The notes under the pieces are model-generated. The model saw nothing but the letters and a program-made list of their open reading frames with translations. It had not been told where the DNA came from and did not search any database. This document shows positions 18,051 through 35,800 of a stretch of DNA of 64,000 nt, in pieces; position 1 is the stretch's first letter, and every line of letters begins with the position of its first letter. A program made the translations under genes and the position numbers. Source of the DNA: Dehalococcoidia bacterium. GTDB lineage: Bacteria; Chloroflexota; Dehalococcoidia; Dehalococcoidales; Fen-1064. The stretch covers positions 1 through 64,000 of the forward strand of contig DUFD01000044.1 of assembly GCA_011171075.1 (NCBI GenBank), in the 5' to 3' direction.

Positions 18051-19520
18051 CTAGCGTGTCGTCACTACTGTAAAAGCTACGTTATATTCCGTGCTCTCCG
18101 ATGGTTCGGTAGTATCGCCGACCTCAACATCGGCAATGCGGACTTCGGAGTAATACCCCAGCTCTTCGAGGGCGGCTACGTAAGTGGTTACGGTGGCAAT
18201 CGAATCTGTTTGTCCGCATGTAATCACCCCGTCAACTCCAATGTTTATCGAAGTTAGATAACCTATCTGAGTAATGGCGTTAGTTATCATTTCCAGGTTG
18301 TCGGCTATGTCATCGGTGCGCGCTAATAATTGGTGATGCTGCTGTAAAACTTCCAGGTCAGCGGACAGCTGTGTAATGACCTCTTCTATCGCTGCTGCCT
18401 CATCGGCTCGTATACGGACCTGGTATAACTCGTCGCTGACGATAACCGCCTGGCTTCCGAGACGGGCTGTTTCTGTTCTGGTGATATCAAAAGTCTGATA
18501 TGCGGGAAGCATGAGTACGGTGGCAATAACCAGCATCGCAGGTACAAAAAGACGCCTGAACGCTGCTCGGTTGCTCTCCGCTCTGTACTTCTCAGGCATC
18601 AGATTGATGTCGATATCGTGGTAATCACCTACTCCGGCCTTAGCAGTGGACTTCAGTCTCATCTTTTTAAGGGCAAGACCTATGTTATTGGTATACAGGT
18701 CAAGCGGGAAGTCCGGGGGTAGTATGATAGGTGGTAATACAGGTTCGACTGGGTATCCGGTCTCTGCCTGGACAAGCTGGCGGGCAGTCGGGTCCACTGA
18801 GAGTTCACCAGTGAGTATCAGAGGAGTGTCTGGTTTTAGTGGTTCCTCTGGACGACTGTTGTTGTAGAACCCTATTGTTTTGTTAAGTTCGTCCACAGCC
18901 CGCATCACATTATCCTCTATATTAGCGCCTTCACCCCTGGGCATGGCTGTGTGCATGGTAGCAGGTTTTCCGTTGGCTACCACCACGATATCGAAGTAGT
19001 CTGGCTCCAGACTGAGCAATATGGCATCTGGCTGATTAACGGCCCTGGCGAGTGCCAGTCCTCTGAGGTCCATCATGTAAGGTTTTATTCCTGCTTCCGT
19101 CAGTGTCTGTACCAGGGAATCAATGAGATTCCGCGGTACGCCTACTATGAAATAACTCAACTCATCGTTGCTTTCACCAATCTGGTGCCAGGTAAGATAC
19201 AGGTTCTCTATTGGCACCGGTATTTCCTTCTTGGCGCCGCGTAGAATGGCTTCCTCCCGAATGGATTGTGGTGTTACAGGCAGATTCAGTGTGCGGTAAG
19301 TGAACGACATGCCGGAAAGGCTGACAATTACCTTATTGCGGCTGACCTTCAAGGATTCGAATAAGCCATTGATGGCGGCGGCAACAGCAGTAGTGTGCAG
19401 GATGAATCCGTCCTGTACCAGTCCCGACTCGAGTGGCACCTCACCCCATGTCCTCACCCGTTTACCCTGTAAGGCGAGTAATCTGATACTGGCACTACCT
19501 ATATTTAATGTAACTAACAT
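18051..19520 (-). CDS. Type IV pilus assembly protein, PilM-PilN fusion
   Basis: A 489-residue fusion. The first 300 residues form a PilM-like actin-fold ATPase (LVTLNIGSASIRLLAL at the start; VIVSLSGMSFTYRTLNLP; MMDLRGLALARAV). After ESNRAAFRRLFVPAMLVIATVLMLPAYQTF, a single membrane helix at about residue 320-345, comes a periplasm-side coiled coil and a PilN-like domain. PilM and PilN are normally separate proteins whose interaction joins the cytoplasmic and membrane parts of the pilus platform. The fusion keeps them tethered. Followed in the same complex by PilO encoded 18 bp upstream. Last gene of the operon. Confidence 0.85.
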   Translation of the reverse strand: MLVTLNIGSASIRLLALQGKRVRTWGEVPLESGLVQDGFILHTTAVAAAINGLFESLKVSRNKVIVSLSGMSFTYRTLNLPVTPQSIREEAILRGAKKEIPVPIENLYLTWHQIGESNDELSYFIVGVPRNLIDSLVQTLTEAGIKPYMMDLRGLALARAVNQPDAILLSLEPDYFDIVVVANGKPATMHTAMPRGEGANIEDNVMRAVDELNKTIGFYNNSRPEEPLKPDTPLILTGELSVDPTARQLVQAETGYPVEPVLPPIILPPDFPLDLYTNNIGLALKKMRLKSTAKAGVGDYHDIDINLMPEKYRAESNRAAFRRLFVPAMLVIATVLMLPAYQTFDITRTETARLGSQAVIVSDELYQVRIRADEAAAIEEVITQLSADLEVLQQHHQLLARTDDIADNLEMITNAITQIGYLTSINIGVDGVITCGQTDSIATVTTYVAALEELGYYSEVRIADVEVGDTTEPSESTEYNVAFTVVTTR

Positions 19521-19538
19521 TTCGCAGCCCCCTGTCCC

Positions 19539-20144
19539 TTAGTAATTGTCCTCTTCTTCCATGAAGTCCTCCTCATCCTGTGCAAGCTCTTCGTCATCAT
19601 CGACCGGAGCCGGGGCATAGATGGCTATCTCCAGACGGGCTGTTAATTGTGCGGGTTCTGTTATCTGTTCAACATCGCTGGTGACCGTGAGGTGTTGCAC
19701 GCTGACGGATTTCGGTAACTCACTTTCCAGCGTCCTGAGGAGGGCTAAGAGATTATCTGAATTTCCTTTGACGTCCAGGTGTATCGTAAAGACCAGATAG
19801 ACGTAATCCTCGATATTTATCAGTGACCATGGTATCGTTGTCAGAGATATCACGTTGACCTGATTCGCATCTGCTATATCAAGTAATCCATTAATAACCT
19901 GGGTGGTGTTTACCTGTCCTAGCAAGATGCTTTGCTCGGTAACAAGGCTTGTCTCAGCGTCAGTCAGACGCTGCTGAAGGTCGGATGGCACCTCGGGTAT
20001 CAGGGCTATCATTTCGATAGCATCCGTAATTTGTGTTCTGAGTGCCTCCTGCTCGCTCTGCTGTGATATCGAATCCACAAGGAAATAAACGCAGATTATT
20101 AGCAATCCGATACTCAGAACGGTGATTAATAATTTTCTTGTCAC
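19539..20144 (-). CDS. PilO-like pilus assembly protein
   Basis: A 201-residue protein with one N-terminal membrane helix (LLITVLSIGLLIICVYFLV), a coiled coil to about residue 75, and a small alpha/beta domain (VNVISLTTIPWSL ... LVFTIHLDVKGNSDNLLALLRTLESEL) typical of the PilO ferredoxin-like fold. An acidic tail ends DDDEELAQDEEDFMEEEDNY. It should pair with the PilN half of the next protein to form the inner platform of the pilus machine. Sequence identity in this family is low, so the name rests on fold pattern and position. Confidence 0.78.
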   Translation of the reverse strand: MTRKLLITVLSIGLLIICVYFLVDSISQQSEQEALRTQITDAIEMIALIPEVPSDLQQRLTDAETSLVTEQSILLGQVNTTQVINGLLDIADANQVNVISLTTIPWSLINIEDYVYLVFTIHLDVKGNSDNLLALLRTLESELPKSVSVQHLTVTSDVEQITEPAQLTARLEIAIYAPAPVDDDEELAQDEEDFMEEEDNY

Positions 20145-20196
20145 TGTCTTTCCTCCCCGTGCTATATTCTAATGGCCCCCTGTCCTGATAATGACC

Positions 20197-21042
20197 CTAC
20201 TGAGGAGTGATGTCCCATGAAAGTATCGAATACGCTCCTTCACCGAATGTAAATATAGGACACCCGGTATAAGTGAGGGGATAGTCACCCAGGATTTTAG
20301 CTTTATTAAAAAGTGTGACGGTACCGCCTACATAGGCGTCCTGGTGTATCTTTGTCTGGTTATACATCGTGATATTCCCCAGAACATGAGCATCGCCTCT
20401 TATTTGACCATAGCTTCGCATGATTAAATTTTCACCGACACAGACATTTCCTTGAATATCCGTCTGGTCATTTATCGTGAGGGTACCAGCAGTGACGATA
20501 TCACCGTTTATTACCGTGGAGTGGTTATTCAGTGTGATATCCCCTTCTGCATAGATACTGCCATCAATCACGACATGATTTTCAAGACTAACGTCCCCTG
20601 TAACGTAATAATCCCCCGTGTAGGTTGCATGGCCGCTGAAGGTCTTATCACCTTCGATGACTTCGAAACCTGCCGGTAAGCCGTACGTTACTTCTGCAGT
20701 GATGATAATCAGTGAGCCGTCACTGCAGTGAGCCGTTGAGGTAATTTCGTAGGTCTCACCCAGGTCACGTATGGTGACATTCACAGGCGTGCTATTCAGC
20801 GTTAAGGTCGGCAGCTCCACCTGGCCTCCTTCAGGTACTACCGTAGTTCCACTGAGAAGATGCCATATACCAAATTCAATTCCGGCATCGGCCGCATACT
20901 GTTCTTCCACAACCTCCCCGTAAATTCTGGAGCCGATGAGGTTGGCACTGACGTGACCGAGGAACGGAGCCAGCATCAGCCCGCCTAGCCCAAGAACTAC
21001 GAGGGCTATGGGAAGAGCCTGCCCTTTTTCACCGCCAAACAT
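20197..21042 (-). CDS. PilX/TadE-like membrane protein with polymer-forming (bactofilin-like) beta-helix
   Basis: A 281-residue protein. The N-terminus GEKGQALPIALVVLGLGGLMLAPFLGH is a single helix resembling PilX/TadE pseudopilin-like proteins, without the canonical Gly-Phe-Thr-Leu-x-Glu cleavage site. Residues 150-260 are short repeats of the form GDYYVTGDVSLENHVVIDGSIYAEGDI, the six-residue-per-strand right-handed beta-helix seen in polymer-forming cytoskeletal proteins. It overlaps the upstream prepilin stop by one base, placing it in the pilus operon. It may form a surface or periplasmic beta-helical cap; this is inference. Confidence 0.75.
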   Translation of the reverse strand: MFGGEKGQALPIALVVLGLGGLMLAPFLGHVSANLIGSRIYGEVVEEQYAADAGIEFGIWHLLSGTTVVPEGGQVELPTLTLNSTPVNVTIRDLGETYEITSTAHCSDGSLIIITAEVTYGLPAGFEVIEGDKTFSGHATYTGDYYVTGDVSLENHVVIDGSIYAEGDITLNNHSTVINGDIVTAGTLTINDQTDIQGNVCVGENLIMRSYGQIRGDAHVLGNITMYNQTKIHQDAYVGGTVTLFNKAKILGDYPLTYTGCPIFTFGEGAYSILSWDITPQ

Positions 21043-21494
21043 CAGTCAACTCCTCCAGAAGGTCTGAGGTATACCTGGTAAGTACCCTGCTGGCTGGCAC
21101 CCTGTCGCCCGACAGGGGCCGAGGTAATATCCAGGGTGACCATACGACCACTGACAGAAAAGGTTGCCGATGTGATGTTCCAGGCTACTGTTATCTGCGA
21201 GCTGCCATCGTCACGCTGGAGCTCGGTGCCGATGAGCTTATAGGTGACTGTTGAGGCGTCGGGCATGGTCAGTACCAGCTGGCTGCCGCCGGTAGCGGTA
21301 GAAGCAATCTGTCCGTCACGGTTGAGCCAGCTCGAGATGTTCTGAAGGTCATGAATAGCGGTTATCTTGCTGTTACCGTATTCGGCTACGGTGAACATCT
21401 GATAGACGGTGGAGCCCAAAAAACTGGCAATCAGCCCGGTTATCGATATCACCACCAGCAGTTCAACCAGTGTAAAACCCTGCTGTCCCTTCAT
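21042..21494 (-). CDS. Minor pseudopilin / prepilin-type N-terminal methylation protein
   Basis: A 150-residue prepilin with a six-residue leader and a class III cleavage site (QQG/FTLVELLVVISITGLIASFLG), Glu at +5 and a long hydrophobic helix. The remaining part is beta-rich (QLVLTMPDASTVTYKLIGTELQRDD), like GspJ/GspH-type minor pilins. Overlaps its neighbours by 1-4 nt on each side, so it is translationally coupled within the pilus operon. Confidence 0.88.
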   Translation of the reverse strand: MKGQQGFTLVELLVVISITGLIASFLGSTVYQMFTVAEYGNSKITAIHDLQNISSWLNRDGQIASTATGGSQLVLTMPDASTVTYKLIGTELQRDDGSSQITVAWNITSATFSVSGRMVTLDITSAPVGRQGASQQGTYQVYLRPSGGVD

Positions 21495-21916
21495 CTTTTC
21501 ACCTTGTAGGCGTCTACGGTAAGTATCGTTTCGCTATCGCGGTATATAGTTACGGTCAATTCCTGAATGTCTGTATCGGTATAGACAGAGGCGTCCGTCT
21601 CCAGGGAGATGGTATAGCCCGATGGCGTGTCCATTGTTAGATAAGTGGCGCCGGTAGCATCATAGGGAAGGCTCTTGACGTACTCGAGCTGGGTCCTGGC
21701 CAGTTGCTGGGCCACGGCTTCCTGATCGGACTCACGTACTGCCAGTGCTCCGGTCGAAAGCGCAGTTATAAAGGCGACTGCTGTAATCCCGATGATAGCG
21801 ATGGCCACCAGTGTTTCAGCCAGTCCAATGCCTCTTTCATCCCGGATACAGTTATGGGATGCTGCTAACCGCTGGCTAGCTAATTGTTTCGCTTTTATGA
21901 ATCCAAGCAGGTTCAT
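21491..21916 (-). CDS. Minor pseudopilin, PilV/GspI-like
   Basis: A 141-residue protein with an unusually long leader (about 29 residues) before the cleavage site RDERG/IGLAETLVAIAIIGITAVAFI; Glu is at +5. The mature part includes AVRESDQEAVAQQLARTQLEYVKSLPYD, a pattern common in PilV/GspI minor pilins. It overlaps pilC and the next pseudopilin by 4 nt each. Likely primes pilus assembly at the platform. Confidence 0.82.
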   Translation of the reverse strand: MNLLGFIKAKQLASQRLAASHNCIRDERGIGLAETLVAIAIIGITAVAFITALSTGALAVRESDQEAVAQQLARTQLEYVKSLPYDATGATYLTMDTPSGYTISLETDASVYTDTDIQELTVTIYRDSETILTVDAYKVKR

Positions 21917-23127
21917 GATAGCGACCCCATTATCGAGTACATCGGCATAACTATCGATGTGGCCAGGAAGGCAATCATAAGACCGATTACGATTGTTAGA
22001 GTCGGCTCTATCATTCCTATCAGGGCATTGACCTTTTGGTCGACCCTTTGCTCATAGTAATCGGCCAGGGTAGCCAGAGTGCTGTCTATAGTGCCGGTGG
22101 TTTCACCAACGACAACCATCTTGATCATCAGGTCCGGGAAAAGGCTATCCTGAGACATGGGCTGTGACAGGCCCTGTCCCTGAATGAGTTTCTCCCTTAC
22201 GGTTACAAATGACTCACGGACAACCTGATTTCCCATGGAGTTGTTCACAATCTCCATTATCTGAGGTAGTTGCAGGCCTGCTTGCAGCATCATAGAGGTT
22301 GTCTGACAGAAATAGAACATGCTGTGCTGCACGGTTATAGGGCCAATCAGCGGCGCTTTCAGCAAGAACCTGTCCTTGGCCAGCTTGCCGCTGGGTAGTC
22401 TCAAATAGATGATAGTAGCGGCGACGACAACAAGAATTACTCCCAGAATAACGAGTTTATAATCAATAACGAAGCCGGTTACGGCCAATAATATCCTGGT
22501 CGTTATGGGTAACTCGGCGTCGAGGGAAGTGAATAGTCCGATTAAGGGTGGTAGCACTACCGTTATCAATAGGGCAATCACCCCGATTGCCATAACCACA
22601 ATCACAGTCGGATAGGTCATGGCACGTTTCATTTTTTTCTTGGTCTGGACCTGTTTTTCCAGAGCATCGGCCACCTGTTTCAGACCAGCTTCCAGGTTTC
22701 CCGTCTGTTCACTGGCCCTTATTACCTGAACGAAGTACAGGGGGAATACATCCGGGTGTCTGGATAGGGACTCGGAGAAGGAACTGCCTCCCTGGAGCTC
22801 CTCGACCAGGTCTGAGATGATATCACTCAGAGTGGCCTTAGATACATTTCCTTCCAGTGCTCGTAATGCAGTAAGTAGCGGGATACCGGATTCTATCAGC
22901 GTGGCGAGCTGACGGGCAAAATCGATTAAATCAGGGGTCTTCACACCGAAAAGGAAGGGTATCTGGCTCTTGAGGGTCTTGCGCGTGGGTAACTCCTTAA
23001 GGCTGAGGATATGATTATAGCCAGCATGATACAGGGCGTCCTCAGCCGCACTTTCGGAGGGGGCTTCAATTGTGCCCTGTACTATTTTTTTATCAATGGT
23101 ATAGGCCTGATAACGGTATCCCATCAA
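21913..23127 (-). CDS. pilC: Type IV pilus inner-membrane platform protein
   Basis: A 404-residue GspF/PilC family protein with two GspF repeats: residues about 65-190 (DFARQLATLIESGIPLLTALRALE) and 270-395 (FCQTTSMMLQAGLQLPQIMEIV). Three membrane segments (YPTVIVVMAIGVIALLITVVLPPLIGLF; VILGVILVVVAATIIYL; LTIVIGLMIAFLATSIVMPMYSI) match the family. It anchors the extension ATPase encoded just upstream. N-terminus starts MMGYRYQAYTIDKKIVQGTIEA. Confidence 0.95.
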   Translation of the reverse strand: MMGYRYQAYTIDKKIVQGTIEAPSESAAEDALYHAGYNHILSLKELPTRKTLKSQIPFLFGVKTPDLIDFARQLATLIESGIPLLTALRALEGNVSKATLSDIISDLVEELQGGSSFSESLSRHPDVFPLYFVQVIRASEQTGNLEAGLKQVADALEKQVQTKKKMKRAMTYPTVIVVMAIGVIALLITVVLPPLIGLFTSLDAELPITTRILLAVTGFVIDYKLVILGVILVVVAATIIYLRLPSGKLAKDRFLLKAPLIGPITVQHSMFYFCQTTSMMLQAGLQLPQIMEIVNNSMGNQVVRESFVTVREKLIQGQGLSQPMSQDSLFPDLMIKMVVVGETTGTIDSTLATLADYYEQRVDQKVNALIGMIEPTLTIVIGLMIAFLATSIVMPMYSIMGSLS

Positions 23128-23153
23128 TCTCCTCCTCTATGAAAACCGGCTAA

Positions 23154-24863
23154 TCAACCAATTGAGTGAACACTTCGCAATACCTCGCTAACTGATGTAA
23201 TGCCCTTTCTCACCTTCGACATACCATCACGCCTCATGGTAATCATTCCCTCTTTAAGTGCTTCGGCGCGGAGTTCCTCCGTACTGGCCCCGCCGGTGAG
23301 CATTACTCTCAGTTTTTCGGTAATAACCATAATCTCAAAAAGGCCGGTTCTCCCCTGATAGCCGGTGTTGGCACAGACATTGCACCCGGTTCCCGGTCCG
23401 TATATCAGGGCCGGCAGCTCGGCCATTTCCTCGTGATAGGCGACCTCTTCTTCTGCCACCGGCTTGTAGGGAACGCGACAGTGGCTGCAGAGTCGGCGTA
23501 CCATTCTCTGGGTAACAGTCCCAACCAGTGTTGAGGAGATAAGATACGGTTCAATACCGAGTTCTATCAGTCGGAAGAGTACCCCAACAGCGTCATTGGC
23601 GTGAATCGATGAAAGCACCAGATGGCCGGTAAGGGCTGCCTGGACTCCTGTACTTGCCGTGTCCCGGTCGCGGATTTCCCCCACGAGTATTACGTCGGGG
23701 TCCTGCCGCATGGCGGAGCGAAGGCCGCTGGCGAATGTGAGCCCGGCCTTGATGTTGACCTGGGTCTGGCTGATATCGGCAAAGTGGTACTCCACCGGGT
23801 CTTCAATGGTCAGGATGTTATGCTCCTTTCGGTCGAGGGCGTTGATAGATGCGTATAGTGTGGTTGTCTTACCCGAACCGGTAGGGCCACCCACCAGTAT
23901 CAGACCGAAGGGGCTTTTCATCATCAGCTGGTATGTCTCCAGGGATTCGGGCAGCATACCCAGTTCCACTAGGGTGAGGAAGGACAAGGACTTGAGCAGG
24001 ATTCGCAATGTCACCCGTTCACCGTACACTGTCTCCATGCTGGCAGCGCGTATGTCGACATCTTTATCCCTCACCTTGACCTGAAACTGGCCGTCCTGGG
24101 GGCGTCTCTGTTCGGCGATGTTCATACCTGCCAGGATTTTTACCCGCGAGATTAATGGCGCATGTACCGACAATGGCAGGGGGGACATATCATGTAAAAT
24201 GCCGTCAATCCGGTAGCGGATACGCAGGTAGGTCTCTTGTGGTTCGATGTGGACATCGGATGCTCTGTCCTTGACTGCCTGGGCGATGAGTAGGTCTAAT
24301 GTCTGGGCAATGGGAGTCCGGGCAACCAGCTCGGGGGTTACTTCAGTCTCCACCGCTTCGGCGGGCGTCATCTGACTGACCTGCTTCTCTATTTCGGCGC
24401 TGGACTTGTAGTTGCGGTCGATGGCGTGCTCAATTTCACTGGGGATACCAAGCGCCGGTTCAACCTTCATCTTCACCTGGGTATTGATATCTTCAATCGC
24501 CTGGATGTCCTCCGGGTTTGCCATAACGACTACCAGTGAGTTGCCGGAGACGCTTAGGGGGATGAGGGTGTATTTCCTGGCGGTATCCTCCGGGATTAGC
24601 TGGAGCGCCTGGCGTTGTACGGAATGGCGCTTCAGGTCTATCAGTGGTACGTTGAGCCATATGCTGAGCACGGGGGCCAGTTCATCGAAACTGACCACTC
24701 CCTGTTTGATCAGAATATCAGTAAGATTACCACCATGCTCATGCTGCTGTTTGAGGGCGTCTTCGAGTTGCTCGGTGGTAATAAGCCCGTCCTCAACCAG
24801 CAGCTTGCCAAGATTTTTCCTGGCTACTCTTTCAGCGAATATCTCACTGCCGTTTATACTCAT
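23154..24863 (-). CDS. pilB: Type IV pilus extension ATPase (GspE/PilB family)
   Basis: A 569-residue hexameric ATPase. The N-terminal MshEN domain (NLGKLLVEDGLITTEQLEDALKQQ) is followed by the motor with Walker A GGPTGSGKTTTLYASI, Asp box TIEDPVEY, Walker B DPDVILVGEIRD and the His box. A four-Cys zinc motif (CSHCRVPY ... CNVCANTG) is complete. The ORF-track start (24935) adds 24 residues not seen in the family; the ATG at 24863 follows GAGAAGGAT and matches the usual N-terminus. No PilT retraction ATPase gene is present in the window. Confidence 0.95.
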   Translation of the reverse strand: MSINGSEIFAERVARKNLGKLLVEDGLITTEQLEDALKQQHEHGGNLTDILIKQGVVSFDELAPVLSIWLNVPLIDLKRHSVQRQALQLIPEDTARKYTLIPLSVSGNSLVVVMANPEDIQAIEDINTQVKMKVEPALGIPSEIEHAIDRNYKSSAEIEKQVSQMTPAEAVETEVTPELVARTPIAQTLDLLIAQAVKDRASDVHIEPQETYLRIRYRIDGILHDMSPLPLSVHAPLISRVKILAGMNIAEQRRPQDGQFQVKVRDKDVDIRAASMETVYGERVTLRILLKSLSFLTLVELGMLPESLETYQLMMKSPFGLILVGGPTGSGKTTTLYASINALDRKEHNILTIEDPVEYHFADISQTQVNIKAGLTFASGLRSAMRQDPDVILVGEIRDRDTASTGVQAALTGHLVLSSIHANDAVGVLFRLIELGIEPYLISSTLVGTVTQRMVRRLCSHCRVPYKPVAEEEVAYHEEMAELPALIYGPGTGCNVCANTGYQGRTGLFEIMVITEKLRVMLTGGASTEELRAEALKEGMITMRRDGMSKVRKGITSVSEVLRSVHSIG

Positions 24864-24960
24864 TTTTATATCCTTCTCAGGGAAGCCACATTCAGCGCAG
24901 TTCAGAAGAGTACCGACTGCTGCCCCTGATACCACGAGGATATCGATTCATTCCAGTTGG

Positions 24961-25326
24961 TTACGACAAGAGGCTTTCCACCCGACGTATTATCTCTGAG
25001 GGCTCTGCTGGTTTGGTTAGGTAATCGTCAGCACCCACCTGCCGCCCGACTGCCTTGTCCTTGTCCTGACTCCTTGCAGAGAACATCAGGATGGGCAGCC
25101 GGGCAGTAGCTGGTTCAGCGCGCAGGCGATGGCAGATTTCGTAGCCATCCATTCCTGGGAGCATGACGTCCAGGATAACGAGGTCAGGTTCTTCTGTCCG
25201 GGCTTTACGAAGCCCTTCAAGCCCGTTGCCCGCAGTGATTACCTGGTAACCATGTTTTTCCAGGGTGAACCTGATGTACCTCAGGCCCACGGGGTCGTCT
25301 TCAATTATTAAAATCTTCGTTTCCAT
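24961..25326 (-). CDS. Single-domain response regulator within the pilus operon
   Basis: A 121-residue receiver: D10/D11 (LIIEDDP), phospho-acceptor D53 (VILDVMLPGMDG) and K in YLTKPAEPSE. The track start is too long: GGGGA sits directly on the upstream ATG but 9 nt before the ATG at 25326, which also gives the classical METKILIIEDD start. Located between the major pilin and pilB, so phospho-signalling probably feeds directly on the pilus machine, as CheY-like PilG/PilH do elsewhere. Confidence 0.88.
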   Translation of the reverse strand: METKILIIEDDPVGLRYIRFTLEKHGYQVITAGNGLEGLRKARTEEPDLVILDVMLPGMDGYEICHRLRAEPATARLPILMFSARSQDKDKAVGRQVGADDYLTKPAEPSEIIRRVESLLS

Positions 25327-25463
25327 GCTAATCATTCCCCAGTCTGTGCCAGGGATTAACGCCAGATTCGAGCTAGCGTCTGTGGCCAGCATGCCCCCTC
25401 GAAGCTATTACAGGCATGCGGTCAGCTCTAAGCCCCTGCCGTTTTCTCGTCCTGCGTCAATTT

Positions 25464-25832
25464 CTAGTATCCGGTGGTTGCCTGAGTAACCAGCCCGGTA
25501 GTACTGCATGTATAAGTCCCCTTGGTCTCTGACATGCGCAGGTAGTCCGGGTAGAGAGGATAGTTCCTGTGCGGGAACCTCGTCATGTCCTTGGTGGCCG
25601 TAGTTACGGCGGTTACGCTGCTCCTCCCTTCCTTGGCCATCATTGTGTCCATAGCCGACTGGACCGTTATCAGTTCAGCCTTGGCGGCTTCTGTCTCGCC
25701 GCTGCCGACAAGCCCCGTAACATTGGGGATGATAATGGCAGCCAGTACACCGATGATTGCGATAACAATCAGCAGCTCTACCAGGGTAAAACCCCGGTCG
25801 TTTTTGAAAACCTTTCTTAGTAACGTGGTCAT
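25464..25832 (-). CDS. Type IV major pilin-like protein
   Basis: A 122-residue prepilin with a 14-residue leader and the cleavage site NDRG/FTLVELLIVIAIIGVLAAIIIPN (Glu at +5). The mature protein is about 108 residues: the hydrophobic helix, an amphipathic helix (ETEAAKAELITVQSAMDTMMAKEG) and a short Tyr-rich C-terminus (HRNYPLYPDYLRMSETKGTY). The GspG/PilA type is favoured because of size and isolation from the minor pilins. Aromatic residues are not dense enough to suggest a conductive pilin. It is flanked by two receiver genes. Confidence 0.9.
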   Translation of the reverse strand: MTTLLRKVFKNDRGFTLVELLIVIAIIGVLAAIIIPNVTGLVGSGETEAAKAELITVQSAMDTMMAKEGRSSVTAVTTATKDMTRFPHRNYPLYPDYLRMSETKGTYTCSTTGLVTQATTGY

Positions 25833-25914
25833 TTCTTCAGTCCCTCCAGTTTTTTGCCTGTTGCAGGTGTGGTTTTATCATTATTCCCCCATTTTCCTCA
25901 CCACCTTTTCCCCT

Positions 25915-26322
25915 CTATTCTTTTTTGGCGACTTCACTTTCGATTATCTCGTTCTGCATCTCTGCCAGGTATCTGTTGACCTCGGCAATGAAAGTCTGGA
26001 CATCAATTGGCTTGGTCAGGTAGCTGTTGCAGCCGGCGGCTATAGCCAGTTCTTTATCCACAGGCATGGCAAAGGACGTCAGGGCGATAATGGGGAGGTC
26101 CTCCTCGCTTTCTTGGCCACGAATCCTGCGGGTTGCCTCATGTCCGTCGATACCCGGTAGCTGGATATCCATAATAACGAGGTCTGGCTTTTCGTCGAGT
26201 GCCAACTTCACACCTTCAAGGCCGTCCCTGGCCTCGATTACCTCGTGTCCGCCTTTTTGCAGGATGAAACGGATTAAATACAGATTGGTATCGTTGTCAT
26301 CCACTACCAGTATTTTCTTCAT
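25915..26322 (-). CDS. Response regulator receiver paired with the 12-PAS kinase
   Basis: A 135-residue receiver: D8/D9 (LVVDDND), phospho-acceptor D52 (VIMDIQLPGIDG), switch ALTSFAMP and K in YLTKPIDVQTF. This DivK-like sequence is typical of cognates of large PAS kinases. GAGGAG is directly before the track start MRTMKK but 9 nt before the ATG at 26322, which is preferred. The gene overlaps the 3' end of the kinase gene by 26 nt, indicating coupled translation and a likely cognate pair. Confidence 0.9.
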   Translation of the reverse strand: MKKILVVDDNDTNLYLIRFILQKGGHEVIEARDGLEGVKLALDEKPDLVIMDIQLPGIDGHEATRRIRGQESEEDLPIIALTSFAMPVDKELAIAAGCNSYLTKPIDVQTFIAEVNRYLAEMQNEIIESEVAKKE

Positions 26323-29300
26323 TGTTCTCATCTCCTCTGTATTCCAGTGGTAGAGTTAAACCAAAATCACTGCCTTTGCCGTACTCACTCTTTATCCAGA
26401 TGTCACCCCCCAGCATTTGTAAGATTTTCCTGCTGTGGTGCAGTCCGAGACCGGTGCCTTCAAATCTGCGGGTAAGGCTTCCGTCGACCTGCTGGAAGGG
26501 CGCAAAGAGCTTGTCGATGTCCTCATTTTCAATCCCGATGCCGGTATCGATAACATGGACTTCTAGGGTGTCATCGTGTGTGTGACCGTTTTCCTCGTGC
26601 AAAGCAGCGATAATTCTGACGCTCCCTTGCTCGGTAAATTTGACAGCATTACCTCCCAGGTTTATCAGGACCTGTTTGAAGCGACGTCGGTCGGTGTAGA
26701 GCTGGATTTCCCCATCGGTTTCTGCTGTAAGTTCAATGCCTTTCGTTTGCGCGGCCGGGGTCAGTATATCCACCACTTCAGATATGAGTTCATTAAGGGG
26801 GAATTCCTCCAGTGAAAGCTCGACCTTTCCGGCTTCAATCTTTGAGATGTCTAAAACATCGTTAATAAGGCTCAGTAGGTGGTTACTGCTGCTCTTTACC
26901 AGGCTGAGTTGCTCTCTCTGCTCTTCGTTGATGTCTCCCGTCATGCCATCCAGAATCAGGCTGGTGAACCCGATGATTGAGTTCAGCGGCGTCCTGAGCT
27001 CATGGCTCATGCTTGACAGGAAGATGGACTTAAGGCGGTCTACTTCCTGGAGCCGGGCGTTGGCCTCTTCGAGTTCGCGGTTTTTCTCGGCAATCTCCCG
27101 CTCCGCTTCTTTTTGCTCGGTGACGTCAATAGTCACGGTTCGCAGTCCGACTGCCTTGCCGTCTTGAAGGATTGGCGCAGAATATGTGACAACCGGGTAA
27201 GTGCTGCCGTCCCTCCTCGTCTGGGTATATTCAACACGACCAAGGGTCTCTCCATTTAATATCCTCTGGATATTTTCCTTGACCCTTTCACGGTCCTCGA
27301 GGATGAAGACATCAAGCGGATTGAGGGGGGCAGCATTAACTTCACTCTCGTTATAGCCTGAATCTTCGATGGCTTTCTTGTTGGCGAAGGTGATGTTAAG
27401 CTTGTCGTCCATCTCGGTGACACTCAGTGGCAGGAGATTGACCAGGTCACGGAAGCGTCGGCGGGTATCCCGTAGTCTCTCCTCATTTTTCTTGCGTTCG
27501 GTAATGTCGAGGACGCTTCCCAGGACAGCCCGTTTCCCCTGGTACTGGATGGGCGCTACCGTTTCCATGAACCACCTGCTCTCACCGTCTCTGCTGGTGA
27601 CCGCGTACTCATAAGGCGTGGTACGTTCTCCTTTCAGCATGGCTCTCGCGTTTTTCCTTACCGTTTCCCTGTCTTCGCGACGTACTCTGGCCAGGGATCT
27701 CCTGCCAAGCACCCTGTCCTCAGTCATGCCTAAATCACTGATAAACTGTGGATTGGCAAAGACAAATTTTCCGTCCTGAACTATGTACATGCCGACCGGT
27801 GAGCTTAGTGACAGGGTCTGGAAGATTTCCTCCGCCTGCTTACGCTCGGTATTGTTGAGGGCACTCCCCAGGATAGCTCGTTTTCCCTGATACTGTATGG
27901 AGGCAATCGTTTCGGTAACCCACATAGTGTCGCCGTTTTTATTGAGGGCCCGGTACTCATAAGGTGTAGTACGTTCTCCCTTCAGCATGGCTATCGCGTT
28001 CTGCCTCACCATTTCCCTGTCTTCTGGATGAATTATGTCTTGAGGGTCAGTGTTGAGTATCTCATCTTTGCTGTAGCCGGCGTTTTTGAGGAATTCGTCA
28101 TTGTTGAAGACATACTTCCCGTCCTGCAGTATGTATATACTTGCCGGCGAGCTTAGCACTATAGTCTGGAAGATTTCCTCTGCCTGCTTACGCTCGGTGA
28201 TATCCATAGAGGCGATGAGCACGTTGGTTACCTTGCCCTGTGAATCAGATATCGGAGACAGATTGGCGAGGATGTTGATATAGGAGCCGTTTTTACGCAT
28301 AGTGCGGCACTCGATGTTTGCCACGCTTTGTCCTCTCATCACGCGGGCGAACGCAGCTTTCACAGCACGCGTGTCATCGGGGTGTAGCATTGAGAGAATG
28401 CTAATTCGTTTGATTTCCCTATCTGAATATCCGTGGTGCTTTTTCCATTCCTTGTTGGCAAAGAGGAGGTTAGCTTTCAGGTCTGTAGTGGCTATCATGT
28501 CCGGAGAGGTTTCTACCAGCTGTCGGTACCTCAGCTCGCTCTCCCGCAACCTCTCTTCAGCCTGTTTTTGCACGGTGATATCACGACTGATATAAGTAAA
28601 GAACGTTTCTTTCCCTGCTTGCCACTTGGCTAGGGTCATGCCTACCGGGATTTCAGTCCCGTCTTTTCTCAGCCTGACTGTCTCCGTCATGCCGCTTGGA
28701 GGGCTTGAGTTCTGAGATGAAAGCATGGCTTCGATCTCATCCTGGAAGGCCTGATGTAAACGCTCTGGCATTATCAGGGTTAATGGCTGACCGACAGCTT
28801 CGTCGGCAGAGTAGCCGTAAATTTTCTCAGCTGCCTTATTCCAGAGGACGATACGTGTCTGGGCATCAATTGTAATGATTGCCTGGTGGGCCGATTCTGT
28901 AACTGCACGGAAGCTCTCTTCGCTGTGACGCAGTGCCTCCTCCATCCGCCTGCGTTCAGTAATGTTGAAAGGAGTTGCCAGCACGGCTGGTCTACCCCGG
29001 TACTCGATGGGCGCGACAGACGTGATAATCCACTGGACACTACCGTCTTTATTAATACCCCTGAACTCGAAAGGTCTGGTCAGCTTTCCTTTAAGCATCT
29101 CAGCCATTTTCTCCGTGACCATTTCCACGTCGTCGGGGTGGATAAGCTTGCTCGGGTCCATGGCAAGAAGTTCAGCCTCGGTGTAGCCGGTGTTCCGACT
29201 GAAAGCTGGATTTACTAACTGAAATCTGTCGTCCTGGAGGATATAGACGCTGACAGGCGAGTTTTTCAATATGTCACTGAGTAGATTTTCGGCCTGTTTG

Positions 29301-32293
29301 CGTTCGGTGATATCCAGGATGCTGCCGAGGACAGCCCGCCTCCCCTGATACTCGATTGGGGCAACGGTCTCGGCGACCCATAGCATTTCACCGGTATTTG
29401 TAAAGGAGCGGTACTCATACGGTGTGGTACGTTCTCCTTTCAGCATGGCTATTGCGTTCTGCCTCACCATTTCCCTGTCATCCCGGTGGATGAGGTCTTG
29501 GGGTTCAATATTAGAAAGCCCTTCTTCGGTATAACTGATACGGTTGCGGAGCCGAGGATTGGTAAAAACGAACTTACCGTCCTGTGCTATATAGATACTC
29601 GCCGGCGAATTGAGCGCTATAGTCTGGAAAATTTCCTCTGCCTGCTTCTGCTCGGTGATATCCACAACGTTTCCCAGAACAGCTCGTTTCCCATGGTACT
29701 GGATTGATACCACCGTCTCTGAGAGCCATGCCTCAACCTCACCGTTCTCGTTGACAATCCGGTACTCATAAGGTGTGGTACGTTCTCCTTTCAGCATGGC
29801 TATCGCGTTCTGCCTCACCATTTCCCTGTCATCCGGGTGAACCCGGTCTAAAGAATGGGTACCGAGTAATTCGTCTTCGGTGGTGCCCCCGTTCATGAAA
29901 AACCGGGGATTGGCGAAGACAAACTCTCCGTCCTGGACAACATACATGCCGGCCGGCGACCTGAGTGATACCGTACGGAAAATCTCCTCTGTCTGCTTGC
30001 GCTCGGTGATATCTTCAAATACCGCTGTGAAATAACCTTTCTCAGGGCTGTATATTGAGCTTGCAACCCATTTCCCCAGCGGCTCGAAGTAATCTTCATA
30101 TCTGGCGCTTTCGCCGGTTGCGGCAACTTCTCCGAGGACATCGAACAGGTCGGCATTTGATACTGTTAAAGCGGGCATTATTTCGCTAAATCGTCTACCG
30201 ATTAATTGCTCCTTCTTAATTCCGACCAGCCCTTCAATACTGTCATTTGCCTCAAGGCATAACGCATCTACTGGTTTATCATTTTCATCCGTGATTATCT
30301 TTCCGTAAACAAAGCCCCCAGGCATATTTTCAAAGAGGGAGCGGTATCTCTGGGCACTTTGTGCTATCGCCTCTGCCATTCGCTTACGGTCTGTGATATC
30401 TCTGGTAGAGATAATGCCGATTGGTTTGCCGTTATATTCGGTCCGTACCCCGGTTACACTTACCCATATCTCGTCACCATTCTTTTTCATGCACCGGATT
30501 TCGTATAAACCCCGCCGGTCTTCCTTGAACAACCCCACAGTGATATGCTCAATTGCCCAGTCCTGGAACTCTGGCATAACGTAGTCGAGCAGATTGGCTT
30601 CGTATAGCTCGCCGATAGAGTCGAAGCCGAACATATCTGCGACAGCTTGATTGGCGAGTACAATTTTCATTGTTTCATCAATGACGAAAGTGCCCTCGAG
30701 CTTGGTCTCGAACAGGGCCCGGTACCTCGCTTCCGACTCGGATAATTTCTCTTCTGCCTGCTTCTGTGCGGTGACGTCTCTTATAACAGAAATAAAGCCG
30801 GTAGGCCTGCCGGTGGCATCTTTCAGTACGCTGGTGCTGGTTTCCGAGGGGAATCTGGAGCCGTCTTTTCTAGTGACGCCGTATTCGATACCTCTATCTG
30901 CCCCTGTTTCCAGTACGGAGTTCATGTCTGCCATTACTTTCGGGAGGTCCGTAGGGTCTACCAGTTTAAGGGAATTAGCCCCGATTAGCTCTCTGGGGGT
31001 CTTACAACCGTACATCTGTACTGCTTTTTCATTAGCATCGGTGATGATACCGTCGAGGTTGGTGACCACTATCCCGTCGGTCACCGATGAAAACATACGG
31101 CGTAGTTCTTCCTCACTCTCTCTTAAGGCTTCCTCTGCCCGTTGACGCTCGGTGATATCCTCCCCGGAACTGAGGTGACCAACGATAGTTCCGTCTTCAT
31201 CCCTAAGCAGGACATTATGCCAGGCGATAGTCCTCTCCTTACCACTCTTGGTCAAGACAGGATTTTCATAATACTCGGTTGCCTCTACTTCTCCGCTCAG
31301 AAGTTTCCGGGCAACTGACTTAACCTCTTCTCTTAATCTCGGTGGCAGGAAGTTATCAAACCAGTCCTTGCCTACGATTTTTTCCTCTGGATACCCAAGA
31401 ATCTCACAGCCCTTTCGATTTATCAGGGTGACCTTACCGCTGGTATCTATTGCCACAAAAACAACTCCGGCAACATCGAGATATTTCTGGGCAGTATCTC
31501 TTTCATGCCGCAATGCTTCCCTGCTCTGGCTTAAGTCTCTGAGGATAAGCTGATAGGGACGGGTGAGCCCGGCATCAACAACGGCTTGGAATATACAGCC
31601 GAGTGATACCAGTTGGGCCAGATGGGCTACCATATTGATTAACTCGTCATTGGTCTTAATAAAAGCGTAAACAATGCCAGCACCGGCGGTTATGGTCATG
31701 GCTGCAATTAGAAGTCTCAGGACACTGGAATTAAAGGAGCGGCGCTTCTGGAGTAGTAAAAGTATGGCACTGGCGTAGATGAGGGCAATAAGGTACTGGC
31801 TGGTATCTGTAAACAGGGCTTGACCCCCACCTCTGGTATTGGCTGCTGGTGACAAATTCCACAATATGACGGTTATTAGTAAGACCGGAGCAATGATGGC
31901 GTAAGCAAGGAAGACAGAGCGCGGTCTTAGCTTGTGGCCGATAAACAGGGGGGCAGCCAGGAAGGTGAGGCTCTCCATGTAACGGGTGGCTACCCAGAGA
32001 TGTTCCGCAGTGCTGTCACCGTATCCATAAATAGCTTCTAGGGAAAGTGTATGTGCCATCTGCAGACCACCGATGAACAGGTAGGCAATACCAATGAATA
32101 GAAGATAGTTATTACCTAGGTAGTTACGCGAGGTCCAGACGAGGATGAAAATCCCTAGGGCAATCGCTATACTGAACAAGCTGGCCAGACTGAGAAAAAG
32201 GTCATAGTTGTAGACGCTGGCTGCATAGAGCCCGCCCAGAGCGAGTGCCATCAAGAAAAAGGGTAAGTAGGTTCTGCGGTAGGGTATTCTCAT
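26297..32293 (-). CDS. Giant membrane histidine kinase: MASE3, 12 PAS domains, HisKA, HATPase
   Basis: About 1,998 residues. The N-terminal 250 residues form a multi-helix MASE3 sensor (FFLMALALGGLYAASVYNYD ... LLFIGIAYLFIGGLQMAHT). Twelve PAS units of about 119 residues follow, each closing with an ITERKQAEE-type linker, to about residue 1700. Then come HisKA (SSMSHELRTPLNSIIGF) and a complete HATPase (GGNAVKFTEQG, EGTGLGLHHSRKIL). Five PAS units are very similar and share MVRQNAIAMLKGERTTPYEY, so the gene grew by internal duplication. The track start (TTG at 32422) lacks a ribosome site; the ATG at 32293 follows AGAGGAG and gives a normal membrane start. First large gene of the pilus operon. 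Confidence 0.92.
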   Translation of the reverse strand: MRIPYRRTYLPFFLMALALGGLYAASVYNYDLFLSLASLFSIAIALGIFILVWTSRNYLGNNYLLFIGIAYLFIGGLQMAHTLSLEAIYGYGDSTAEHLWVATRYMESLTFLAAPLFIGHKLRPRSVFLAYAIIAPVLLITVILWNLSPAANTRGGGQALFTDTSQYLIALIYASAILLLLQKRRSFNSSVLRLLIAAMTITAGAGIVYAFIKTNDELINMVAHLAQLVSLGCIFQAVVDAGLTRPYQLILRDLSQSREALRHERDTAQKYLDVAGVVFVAIDTSGKVTLINRKGCEILGYPEEKIVGKDWFDNFLPPRLREEVKSVARKLLSGEVEATEYYENPVLTKSGKERTIAWHNVLLRDEDGTIVGHLSSGEDITERQRAEEALRESEEELRRMFSSVTDGIVVTNLDGIITDANEKAVQMYGCKTPRELIGANSLKLVDPTDLPKVMADMNSVLETGADRGIEYGVTRKDGSRFPSETSTSVLKDATGRPTGFISVIRDVTAQKQAEEKLSESEARYRALFETKLEGTFVIDETMKIVLANQAVADMFGFDSIGELYEANLLDYVMPEFQDWAIEHITVGLFKEDRRGLYEIRCMKKNGDEIWVSVTGVRTEYNGKPIGIISTRDITDRKRMAEAIAQSAQRYRSLFENMPGGFVYGKIITDENDKPVDALCLEANDSIEGLVGIKKEQLIGRRFSEIMPALTVSNADLFDVLGEVAATGESARYEDYFEPLGKWVASSIYSPEKGYFTAVFEDITERKQTEEIFRTVSLRSPAGMYVVQDGEFVFANPRFFMNGGTTEDELLGTHSLDRVHPDDREMVRQNAIAMLKGERTTPYEYRIVNENGEVEAWLSETVVSIQYHGKRAVLGNVVDITEQKQAEEIFQTIALNSPASIYIAQDGKFVFTNPRLRNRISYTEEGLSNIEPQDLIHRDDREMVRQNAIAMLKGERTTPYEYRSFTNTGEMLWVAETVAPIEYQGRRAVLGSILDITERKQAENLLSDILKNSPVSVYILQDDRFQLVNPAFSRNTGYTEAELLAMDPSKLIHPDDVEMVTEKMAEMLKGKLTRPFEFRGINKDGSVQWIITSVAPIEYRGRPAVLATPFNITERRRMEEALRHSEESFRAVTESAHQAIITIDAQTRIVLWNKAAEKIYGYSADEAVGQPLTLIMPERLHQAFQDEIEAMLSSQNSSPPSGMTETVRLRKDGTEIPVGMTLAKWQAGKETFFTYISRDITVQKQAEERLRESELRYRQLVETSPDMIATTDLKANLLFANKEWKKHHGYSDREIKRISILSMLHPDDTRAVKAAFARVMRGQSVANIECRTMRKNGSYINILANLSPISDSQGKVTNVLIASMDITERKQAEEIFQTIVLSSPASIYILQDGKYVFNNDEFLKNAGYSKDEILNTDPQDIIHPEDREMVRQNAIAMLKGERTTPYEYRALNKNGDTMWVTETIASIQYQGKRAILGSALNNTERKQAEEIFQTLSLSSPVGMYIVQDGKFVFANPQFISDLGMTEDRVLGRRSLARVRREDRETVRKNARAMLKGERTTPYEYAVTSRDGESRWFMETVAPIQYQGKRAVLGSVLDITERKKNEERLRDTRRRFRDLVNLLPLSVTEMDDKLNITFANKKAIEDSGYNESEVNAAPLNPLDVFILEDRERVKENIQRILNGETLGRVEYTQTRRDGSTYPVVTYSAPILQDGKAVGLRTVTIDVTEQKEAEREIAEKNRELEEANARLQEVDRLKSIFLSSMSHELRTPLNSIIGFTSLILDGMTGDINEEQREQLSLVKSSSNHLLSLINDVLDISKIEAGKVELSLEEFPLNELISEVVDILTPAAQTKGIELTAETDGEIQLYTDRRRFKQVLINLGGNAVKFTEQGSVRIIAALHEENGHTHDDTLEVHVIDTGIGIENEDIDKLFAPFQQVDGSLTRRFEGTGLGLHHSRKILQMLGGDIWIKSEYGKGSDFGLTLPLEYRGDENNEENTGSG

Positions 32294-32297
32294 AGGA

Positions 32298-32438
32298 CTA
32301 CCAGTCTCCTCTGGTAGAAAGTGAGGCAGGCATGTGTCGGTCGTAGCTGTCAACTGCGTATAGTGGGCATCGACCGATGAGGTTACCGTTGGGCCGGTTT
32401 GTGGATAGTGGCGGAACAACAAGGAACCTGTAACTCAT
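32298..32438 (-). CDS. Possible 46-residue leader peptide or small protein upstream of the giant kinase
   Basis: This ORF is too short for the track. The ATG at 32438 has a strong GGGAGGTAGGTG site with 6-nt spacing. The frame encodes about 46 residues beginning MSYRFLVVPPLSTNRPNG and ends at a TAG only 4 nt before the kinase ATG. The kinase ribosome site (AGAGGAG) lies inside the last codons of this ORF. The arrangement suggests translational coupling. No membrane helix or known family is visible, so it could also be a fortuitous ORF in the leader. Confidence 0.4.
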   Translation of the reverse strand: MSYRFLVVPPLSTNRPNGNLIGRCPLYAVDSYDRHMPASLSTRGDW

Positions 32439-32859
32439 CACCTACCTCCCATGCCACCTTACAGGTTTCCGCTATTATAGCTTTCTTTGTTTGTTTTCCT
32501 TTGAAATCACTGACCGTGTATAGATGTCAGGATATCGCGAATCACTAGTGCCTACATGACTATCGTAGGATACGGTACTACCTGTTTACAATACGTTGAC
32601 GCCCCTATTCGGCCATTGCGCTTTACGTACTTTAAGGCTAGCTATGAGGGCAAAAGAGCACTGTTAGGACCTTATAAAGGTGTGCCTGTCATTGTTTTTG
32701 GCCGCTTTAACCCCCGGTACTACGTACGTTTGCAGAAGGCCAATTCCCATTGTGATACTTTATCGTGGGCAGCGTATAAACCTGTAAATCGGGAAGATGA
32801 TTCCTGTCTATTCTATTGTTAAAGTGGATAAGGCATCCCTAGTTTCCAAGGAGGAAATC
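32439..32859. other. Divergent intergenic region between the pilus/kinase operon and the A2M gene
   Basis: The 421-bp interval holds no convincing gene; the track ORF 32556-32822 has no ribosome site or familiar features. On the minus strand, TATAAT at 32479-32474 could be the -10 of the kinase-pilus operon, with no clear -35. On the plus strand, TTGTGA (32750-32755) and TATAAA (32775-32780), 19 bp apart, are a weak candidate promoter for the A2M gene. The AAGGAGG-type site at 32848-32855 serves the A2M start. Confidence 0.4.
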
Positions 32860-35800
32860 ATGAAAACGCACTGGTTTAAACTGACAGTCATTATACTGGC
32901 GCTGGTAGTAGTCGGTTCGGTTCTGCCGGCCTGTCAGCCACTGGAGGCTGCCGAAAGCTACCTGGCAGTGATACCGCGAGTGCTATTGAGTGGTAGTACG
33001 GAGTCCATTTCCATAGCACTGTTTAAGGGTGACAATCTGATTAGAAGTAAGGTCGAGGTTACCCTGCTGAAGGATGGCGAGGAGATAGCGCGGAGCAACC
33101 AGACAGTAAATGGCAAAGGCACTATCGAGCTGGACATCCCTAGTGATATCGACGAGGGCGAGTATCAGGTCAGGGTATCGGGTGTCGGTTTTGAAGATGA
33201 GGCATCGGTACTGGTTGACGCCAGCTTCGTAGTCTTCCTCGAGACGGATAAACCCATCTATAAACCGGGTCAGACCATTCACATCAGGACGATTACCCTG
33301 ACTCCCGAGCTCAAGCCGGTAGAAGGTCTGGTCACAGTGGAAGTCCTAGATGCCAAGGGCATCAAGATATTCCGCAAAGATGTGCAGACAGACGAGTTCG
33401 GTATGACCAGTGTCGACCTGCCAATATCTAGTGAGCCAAACGAAGGTGCCTGGAAGATAACGGCCATCACGGAAGAGGGGAGGACGCAGCTCGATGTCAG
33501 GGTCGAGAAGTATGTGCTTCCTAAGTACGAGGTCAAGGTAGAATTACCCAAGGAGTGGTTCCTGGTGGACGAGCCAATCACCGGCACTGTTCTGTCGGAG
33601 TACAGCTTTGGAAAGCCGGTTACAGGCGAGCTGGAAATCAGGGCGTCCCACTACATCGGCGAGTGGCGTGAATACGCCATCTTCACCAAGCCGATTGACG
33701 GCGAGACCGACTTTCAAATCCCTGCCGTTGGCTATGTTGCCGGGGTACCGGGTGCAGGCGGGCAGGGCAATGTAATACTGGACATAACTGTTAGAGAGAC
33801 GGCTACCGGATACGAAGGAACCACCAGCCGACTGCTGACAGTTTCGCAGTCGCCCCTTAACCTCCAGTTGATTCCAGAGAGTATGGTCTTTAAGCCGGGT
33901 CTACCGTTTGGCATGCTGATAGTGACGGAGACCCCCGATAATCAACCTCTAAATGCCGAGGTAGCACTGGAACTGACCTATCTTGATAGTGAGTATAACG
34001 AGATAGAGAAAGAGGAGCAACTGATAAATACCAGCAATGGCAAGGCACTGTACAGCACCAATCCTCCGGCGGAGGCAGTTGCCCTGCTGATAGAGGCTTA
34101 TACCGAAGGGGAATGGGAAAGCCTGACGTTACTGGCTTCCTACTCACCGTCCGGGAACTTCATACACGTGGAGCAGGTGAGTGAAGGTATTCCGGCGGTG
34201 GGCGAGATAATCCAGTTCAAGGTGAACTCAACCAGGCGGGCATCCAACTTTTATTACGAGGTTGTGTCCCGTGATAAAGTGGTCTTTTCCGATTATACCA
34301 GGAGCAGCACTATTTCCTTCCGCACCACCCCGATGATGGCGTCGTCTGCCAGGCTGCTTGTTTATCAGATACTGCCTAACAGTGAGGTCGCTGCAGACTA
34401 CATTCCGTTTGAAGTAAGCCCGGTATACCCTCACTACGTGACCGCCGAGTTCAGTCAGGATGAAGCCGAACCCGGTGACGACATTCAGATTGATATCAGG
34501 GCAGAAGGTCAGGCAAGAGTGGGTATTGCCGCCGTGGACAGGTCTGTCTATATCCTTGCCGAGAACCGTCTCAACCTGCAGCAGGTCTTTGACAAGCTGG
34601 AGGAACTCTACATGCAACCTCAGGTTGAGCTGCACGAGGTCTCAATCTATCCCAGGATAACCACCAGGGGAGCGATGGACGTCTTCGAGGATGCCGGGGT
34701 AGTGGTGCTGAGCAACAACGACATTCCAGAAGGCAAGGAGTATGAGGCCGGTGATAAGGGTGGTTTCTGGGGTGGTTTTTGGAGAGGAATAGGAGTGATG
34801 GAGGCTGCCGGAGAGCAGGAGGAGGAAGATTTTTCCGCTCCGCAGGCGACCAATGGTGATGACGGTGGTGCCGGACTTGCCGAGGTTGAGAGGGTAAGGC
34901 AGTTCTTCCCCGAGACCTGGCTCTGGATAGAAGACACCACCGGGACTAACGGTCGGTTGTTACTTGATGTGACGGTACCGGATACTATCACCACCTGGAT
35001 GCTGCGGGCGGTGGCCATATCAAAGGAGCAGGGTCTCGGCATTGCCGAGGACGAGCTGGTGGCGTTCCAGCCATTTTTCCTGACGATTGACCTGCCGTAC
35101 TCGGCGATAAGGGGCGAGGAATTCCCCGTTCAGGTAGCTATTTACAACTACCTCGATGAGCCTCAGGAAGTTTTAGTGGAGATTGAAGACGCCGGCTGGT
35201 TCGACCTGCTGGATAACGCAAGTCAGACGGTGGAGATTGATGCCAACGATATCGGCAGTGCCTCGTTCATGATGAGGCCGACAGAACTGGGCATCAGTTC
35301 GGTACAGATAACAGCCAGGAGCACCGAGGCAGCGGATGCCGTAATCAAGACTTTGATAATAGAACCTGAGGGTGTTGCCCGCGAGGTGGTGAGTAACCTC
35401 AATATCTCTGCGGGAGACCCGGAGACGGTCACCACCGATATACCCTTCGATGCGGTTGATGGTTCTGGCAGGGCCTATCTAACGGTCACCTCCAGCTATC
35501 TTACCCAGACGCTTGAGGGGTTGGAGGAGCTTATCCAGATGCCCTTCGGCTGCGGTGAGCAGAACATGCTACTGCTGGCCCCGGATATCTACATAACCAA
35601 GTACCTCCAGGAGAGCGGACAAGTTAAGCCGGAGATAATGGCAAAGGCGGAGCTGCTAATGATTACCGGCTACCAGAGGGAGCTGACCTACCGCCGCAGC
35701 GATGGCAGTTTCTCTGCCTTCGGTGAGAGCGACGATATAGGCAGCCTCTGGCTGACCGCCTTCGTCCTCAAGTCGTTTGCCGAGGCGAGGGACCTTATCT

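Follow-up and report, generated by a model that had tools for sequence, protein, structure and literature searches.

A twelve-PAS membrane histidine kinase with an old, shuffled PAS array and a short core probably homogenised by gene-conversion-like exchange in four of its units

Archaeal histidine kinases with multiple PAS or GAF domains have been described, and these are often cytoplasmic (PMC5847659). In the hybrid kinases of Azospirillum, domain duplication and recombination are reported to diversify the sensor kinases, and close paralogues often differ in their input domains (PMC4618731). For the bacterial paralogues RF1 and RF2, partial gene conversion, affecting a part of the gene only, has been found by means of the local phylogenetic signal (PMC4530459). 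Our keyword search of the literature, with partial coverage, returned nothing on point about concerted evolution or gene conversion in PAS units, and a search for papers on MASE3, again with partial coverage, found none. Here we present the analysis of a kinase gene in a window of 64,000 nucleotides (the whole stretch of DNA analysed), which belongs to a 2.1-Mb draft genome in 53 contigs. Hits such as L010 and L022 suggest that this genome comes from the Dehalococcoidia (Chloroflexota). On the whole, its PAS array is best explained, with good though not complete confidence, as an old shuffled array in which a short core of PAS5, PAS6, PAS10 and PAS11 has undergone recent gene-conversion-like homogenisation.

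The gene is a single uninterrupted ORF of 2,041 codons on the minus strand. A previous sequence-only reading had placed a kinase of about 2,000 residues at 26297-32293, and the size stands, but the start is a TTG at 32422, position 32293 being an internal or alternative ATG. Pfam together with an iterated PAS profile gives the domain order MASE3, 12 PAS, HisKA and HATPase_c; the iterated profile counts exactly 12 PAS domains, the number claimed before, and the translation contains SMSHELRTPLN with the phospho-acceptor His. The kinase and its co-directional neighbours are as follows.

26297..32422, minus strand: predicted MASE3 / 12-PAS / HisKA / HATPase_c sensor histidine kinase, 2041 aa (ORF, Pfam and PAS profile)
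31556..32218, minus strand: MASE3 membrane sensor domain, aa 69-289 (Pfam PF17159, E 6.7e-51)
26828..27031, minus strand: HisKA phospho-acceptor domain, aa 1798-1865 (Pfam PF00512, E 1.7e-19)
26342..26692, minus strand: HATPase_c, aa 1911-2027 (Pfam PF02518, E 3.9e-25)
25915..26331, minus strand: single-domain response regulator, overlapping the kinase 3' end by 35 bp (Pfam PF00072)
18051..25832, minus strand: type IV pilus-like genes (pilins, PilB/GspE, PilC/GspF, PilM-like) and a second response regulator, co-directional (Pfam)

The predicted product is a membrane sensor histidine kinase of conventional type whose length is unusual, and its gene heads a type IV pilus-like gene run. Judged from domains and gene order, MASE3 and the PAS units would signal via HisKA to the adjacent response regulators, and the gene order suggests that the kinase may have an effect on pilus function. 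The kinase is adjoined divergently by a gene at window positions 32797-36990, which from our reading of the sequence we take to encode a large alpha-2-macroglobulin-like secreted protein; this gene is 84-85% conserved in both congeners, which have lost the kinase.

Within the array, five units of about 348 bp each (PAS5, 6, 7, 10 and 11) constitute one repeat family, arranged in two clusters, PAS5-7 and PAS10-11, with a spacing of 348-351 bp between neighbours. These units, their cores and PAS1 are located as follows.

31139..31498, minus strand: PAS1, apparent whole-domain copy common to another kinase of the same genome (C12, L092), 78% aa
29648..29998, minus strand: PAS5 unit, aa 809-925 (repeat family comparison)
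29762..29833, minus strand: PAS5 homogenised core, DDREMVRQNAIAMLKGERTTPYEY (identity to the PAS6 and PAS10 cores)
29300..29647, minus strand: PAS6 unit, aa 926-1041, flanks clustering with C3/C7/G002 units (flank tree)
29411..29482, minus strand: PAS6 homogenised core (DNA identity)
28952..29299, minus strand: PAS7 unit, aa 1042-1157, repeat family member whose core is not homogenised (64-68% core nt)
27842..28189, minus strand: PAS10 unit, aa 1412-1527, flanks clustering with C3/C7/G002 units (flank tree)
27953..28024, minus strand: PAS10 homogenised core (DNA identity)
27494..27841, minus strand: PAS11 unit, aa 1528-1643, flanks sister to C3 unit 415, support 100/98 (flank tree)
27605..27676, minus strand: PAS11 core, homogenised tract shorter (about the last 14 codons), upstream part C3-unit-like (sequence comparison)

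A near-identical core of 72 bp is common to PAS5, 6, 10 and 11 only. The sequence-only reading had assigned like cores to all five units, and they do form one family, but PAS7 falls outside the core set, with a match of 10-12 of 24 residues and 64-68% of the DNA. Its observation of near-identical blocks of about 70 bp is borne out by the cores of PAS5, PAS6 and PAS10, which are 93-97% identical in pairs (PAS5 is 97% and 96% identical to PAS6 and PAS10, with the same silent codons at 20/22 and 19/21), and the more diverged copy it noted near 27604-27675 is the PAS11 core, 88-90% identical to the other three. The PAS11 core is a mosaic, reading 'DRETVRKNA' as in C3_415, a unit of another kinase, and then 'AMLKGERTTPYEY' as in the other kinase units. 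Low nucleotide identity between units, named beforehand as evidence against growth by duplication, is found outside the core, where the DNA identity of PAS5, 6, 10 and 11 is 61-66% and their protein identity 49-61%, but not in the four cores (88-97% in DNA). An AlphaFold model of PAS10 (pLDDT 91, pTM 0.81) has a helix at residues 55-69, a loop and a strand from residue 77, and the core occupies residues 56-79; in this model it covers the elements that we take to be the F-alpha helix, the FG loop and the start of G-beta. The PAS unit matched generic PAS domains only in a sequence search of solved structures. No stable RNA fold was found in the core (z between -0.64 and 0.72), and RNA structure is rejected as the cause of its DNA identity.

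The silent codons were compared with those of 17 further units of the same PAS subtype, taken from other kinases of the source genome, two congeners and two family members, the measure being the codon agreement at degenerate codons with identical amino acids. Synonymous divergence among the units, proposed earlier as a check, is low in the core and near the between-gene level in the flanks: PAS5, 6, 10 and 11 use the same codon at 104/122 positions in the core and 152/289 in the flanks, and over pairs of all five units the agreement is 0.81 and 0.50, respectively. Between the kinase and other genes, the agreement is 0.47-0.48 in the flanks, and in the core only 0.46 for the same genome and 0.52 for other genomes, so that neither residue conservation nor codon preference accounts for the core. 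The pooled core value of the four units, 0.85, is reached by none of 715 sets of four non-kinase units, which have a maximum of 0.63. In a column-permutation test on silent codons (p = 0.024), the tract falls in alignment columns 55-72; with 2.8% of control sets under 0.05, the test is not over-liberal, and the silent-site excess is limited to a tract (core 0.85, flank 0.53). When all variable sites are permuted, the three closest pairs have p below 0.001, although this test also counts protein conservation. The single-pair silent tests are modest, with Fisher p of 0.003-0.016 in five of six pairs and the sixth weaker than the 14 best pairs listed; the signal is carried by 72 bp only, and the four units are non-independent. 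At the unit start the codon identity is mildly raised (0.60-0.68, against 0.48-0.60 for the kinase with other genes), which may come from linker conservation or from earlier exchange. Along the unit, orthologues in related species have codon identities of about 0.66-0.95, similar to the 0.85 of the core, and "recent" therefore means about species-level, not strain-level.

The trees of flanks and core give conflicting histories. The flank tree rejects a single clade of the four kinase units, with p-AU of 1.9e-6 from DNA and 1.9e-8 from protein; in it, PAS11 has C3_415 as its sister, with support of 100/98, and PAS6 and PAS10 are placed with C3/C7/G002 units, belonging to other kinases and another species, with support of 96/93. 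With the core data it is the flank topology that is rejected (p-AU 2e-5) and a kinase clade that is accepted, while the flank data reject every tree with a kinase clade (p-AU below 0.001). As each tree rejects the other, the units are old and the core is younger. Silent-site identity in these blocks had been attributed beforehand to recent duplication or gene conversion; the tract of about 72 bp, gene-specific and at odds with the history of its flanks, is in accordance with conversion and not with duplication.

The locus was also examined in relatives. Among 14 family genomes searched, no intact orthologue of the 12-PAS kinase was found, the only remnant being a relic in the congener G002. 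Synteny is kept on both sides of the locus in two congeners (G001 and G002), and both are without the 12-PAS array there. Compared with the window, the single-contig assembly of G002 lacks about 13.6 kb (about 18425-32033) through one deletion, which removed the pilus genes and all of the kinase beyond the first ~130 codons; at the junction (relic L085, G002:C1 about 771535-772275), kinase codon ~130, at the end of a MASE3 stub, continues in frame into the 3' portion of the PilM-like gene, with a stop following. This fusion relic shows that the kinase and pilus genes are ancestral and were lost together. G001 is without even a MASE3 relic. PilB-like genes persist elsewhere in all three genomes, and in MASE3 kinases from elsewhere in the order the MASE3 part is 30-42% identical.

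Whole units are shown to turn over within the genus. At the C7 locus, which has conserved neighbours, the orthologous kinases contain two PAS domains in the source genome (G000), three in G001 and four in G002 (L156, L157 and L158), and at the C32 locus, with conserved neighbours too, four in G000 against three in G001 and G002 (L159, L160 and L161). PAS1 has the look of a whole domain copied between two kinase genes, its nucleotide similarity to the C12 PAS being 0.71-0.87 inside the domain and 0.33-0.47 just after it, with a sharp drop at the linker. The variable PAS number at the two loci and the PAS1 shared with C12 thus indicate whole-unit turnover, and the earlier expectation that the locus is prone to unit gain and loss is supported indirectly, by these sister loci. 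The near-identical cores are not a trace of this turnover. The C7 and C32 orthologues also differ in PAS type, with unit gain, loss or replacement within the genus.

How the cores became alike has to be weighed against this background. The sequence-only reading held that whole units were recently duplicated and that the array is still growing by unequal recombination. The near-identical blocks, the spacing of 348-351 bp between neighbouring units, the PAS number that varies among syntenic sister kinases and the resemblance of PAS1 to a C12 domain would all fit, yet we consider this explanation unlikely. A recently expanded array should have near-identical whole units, silent sites included, and belong to one clade, whereas the flanks are 61-66% identical, their silent agreement of 0.53 is near the 0.47-0.48 between genes, and the subclades of the kinase units are mixed with units of other kinases (p-AU 2e-6). 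Flank divergence and flank tree together refute PAS5, 6, 10 and 11 as recent tandem copies, and the claim of continuing expansion is not supported. Since only about 70 bases of each of the four domains were recently copied, the gene points to small-scale exchange, not to ongoing growth by duplication.

It is very improbable that no exchange took place and that the core merely represents the region of strongest conservation in the PAS subtype, with DNA identity resulting from protein conservation and codon preference. At the protein level the motif is indeed conserved family-wide, with MVRENAIAMLKGERTTPYKY in both G003 and G005, but the kinase cores share 20/24 residues with those of G003 and G005 and only 11-12/18 silent codons, against 15-20 of 19-22 in kinase-kinase pairs; core codon identity elsewhere is 0.44-0.52, equal to the flanks, and the core is without a stable RNA fold. 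Separate introduction of the core into each unit from an outside donor, either another kinase gene or a horizontal source, has some appeal in view of the domain exchange among multi-PAS kinases of the source genome, of which PAS1 and C12 are the example, but has very little chance of being right: no donor with the core DNA is found among same-subtype units of the source genome and four related genomes, nor by DNA search of the 14 family genomes. An assembly artefact might be suspected for a repetitive gene in a draft of 53 contigs; it is extremely improbable, as any two copies are told apart by about 2-9 positions in the 72 bp, a typical short read is longer than the tracts, the ORF stays open through all 2,041 codons, and the units lying in between are different.

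We thus return to the old array with later exchange in its cores. The unit subtypes recur, reshuffled, in several other kinases of the source and related genomes, and the 12-PAS array is an old mosaic, whose repeated units were distinct subtypes before the species of the genus split. A stretch of about 40-80 bp, corresponding to the F-alpha helix, the FG loop and the start of G-beta, would later have been homogenised in PAS5, 6, 10 and 11. The homogenised pattern is observed directly, and we infer behind it intragenic gene conversion or template switching among paralogous units of one gene, presumably by recombination- or replication-associated exchange of short tracts. As a result, the core would evolve in concert, while the remainder of each PAS retains its own identity.

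In the other PAS arrays compared, equivalent homogenisation of the core is not seen; their short self-similar tracts lie mostly in the DITERK..AEEAL linker, or else the similarity is broad and weak. For example, two multi-PAS kinases, L075 (G003:C45) and L012 (on a Methanosarcinales contig), have near-identical short DNA tracts in the DITERK..AEEALRESEE linker, not in the PAS core. An eight-PAS ORF without a kinase domain (L162, G000:C3:11064-15261) overlaps a downstream 432-aa histidine kinase ORF, and the two are possibly a split or frameshifted long kinase. It seems unlikely, as a general rule for large PAS arrays, that repeated short intragenic conversion keeps the F-alpha/FG-loop segment alike while the rest diverges, as a selection-favoured concerted evolution below the domain level; if true, all units would present the same signal-coupling surface with different sensing parts.

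Our analysis distinguishes recent duplication from short-tract conversion, which resemble each other in raw sequence: entire PAS units pass from kinase to kinase, and sub-domain patches are homogenised within one gene. Near-identical cores should not be counted as evidence of array growth. As in the archaeal multi-PAS kinases, a long PAS array precedes the histidine kinase core, but those kinases are often cytoplasmic, whereas here the twelve PAS units stand behind a MASE3 membrane domain (PMC5847659). Diversification by domain duplication and recombination is common to this kinase and the Azospirillum hybrid kinases; the Azospirillum case is built on transmitter and receiver domains (PMC4618731), while here single PAS units are followed from gene to gene and the resolution extends to a sub-domain tract. 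The likeness to RF1 and RF2 is that conversion is limited to a part of the gene and read from the local phylogenetic signal (PMC4530459), with the difference that it took place there between two genes and here would have taken place between repeated units inside one gene. The combination of PAS shuffling and short-tract conversion is a modest new example beside these systems.
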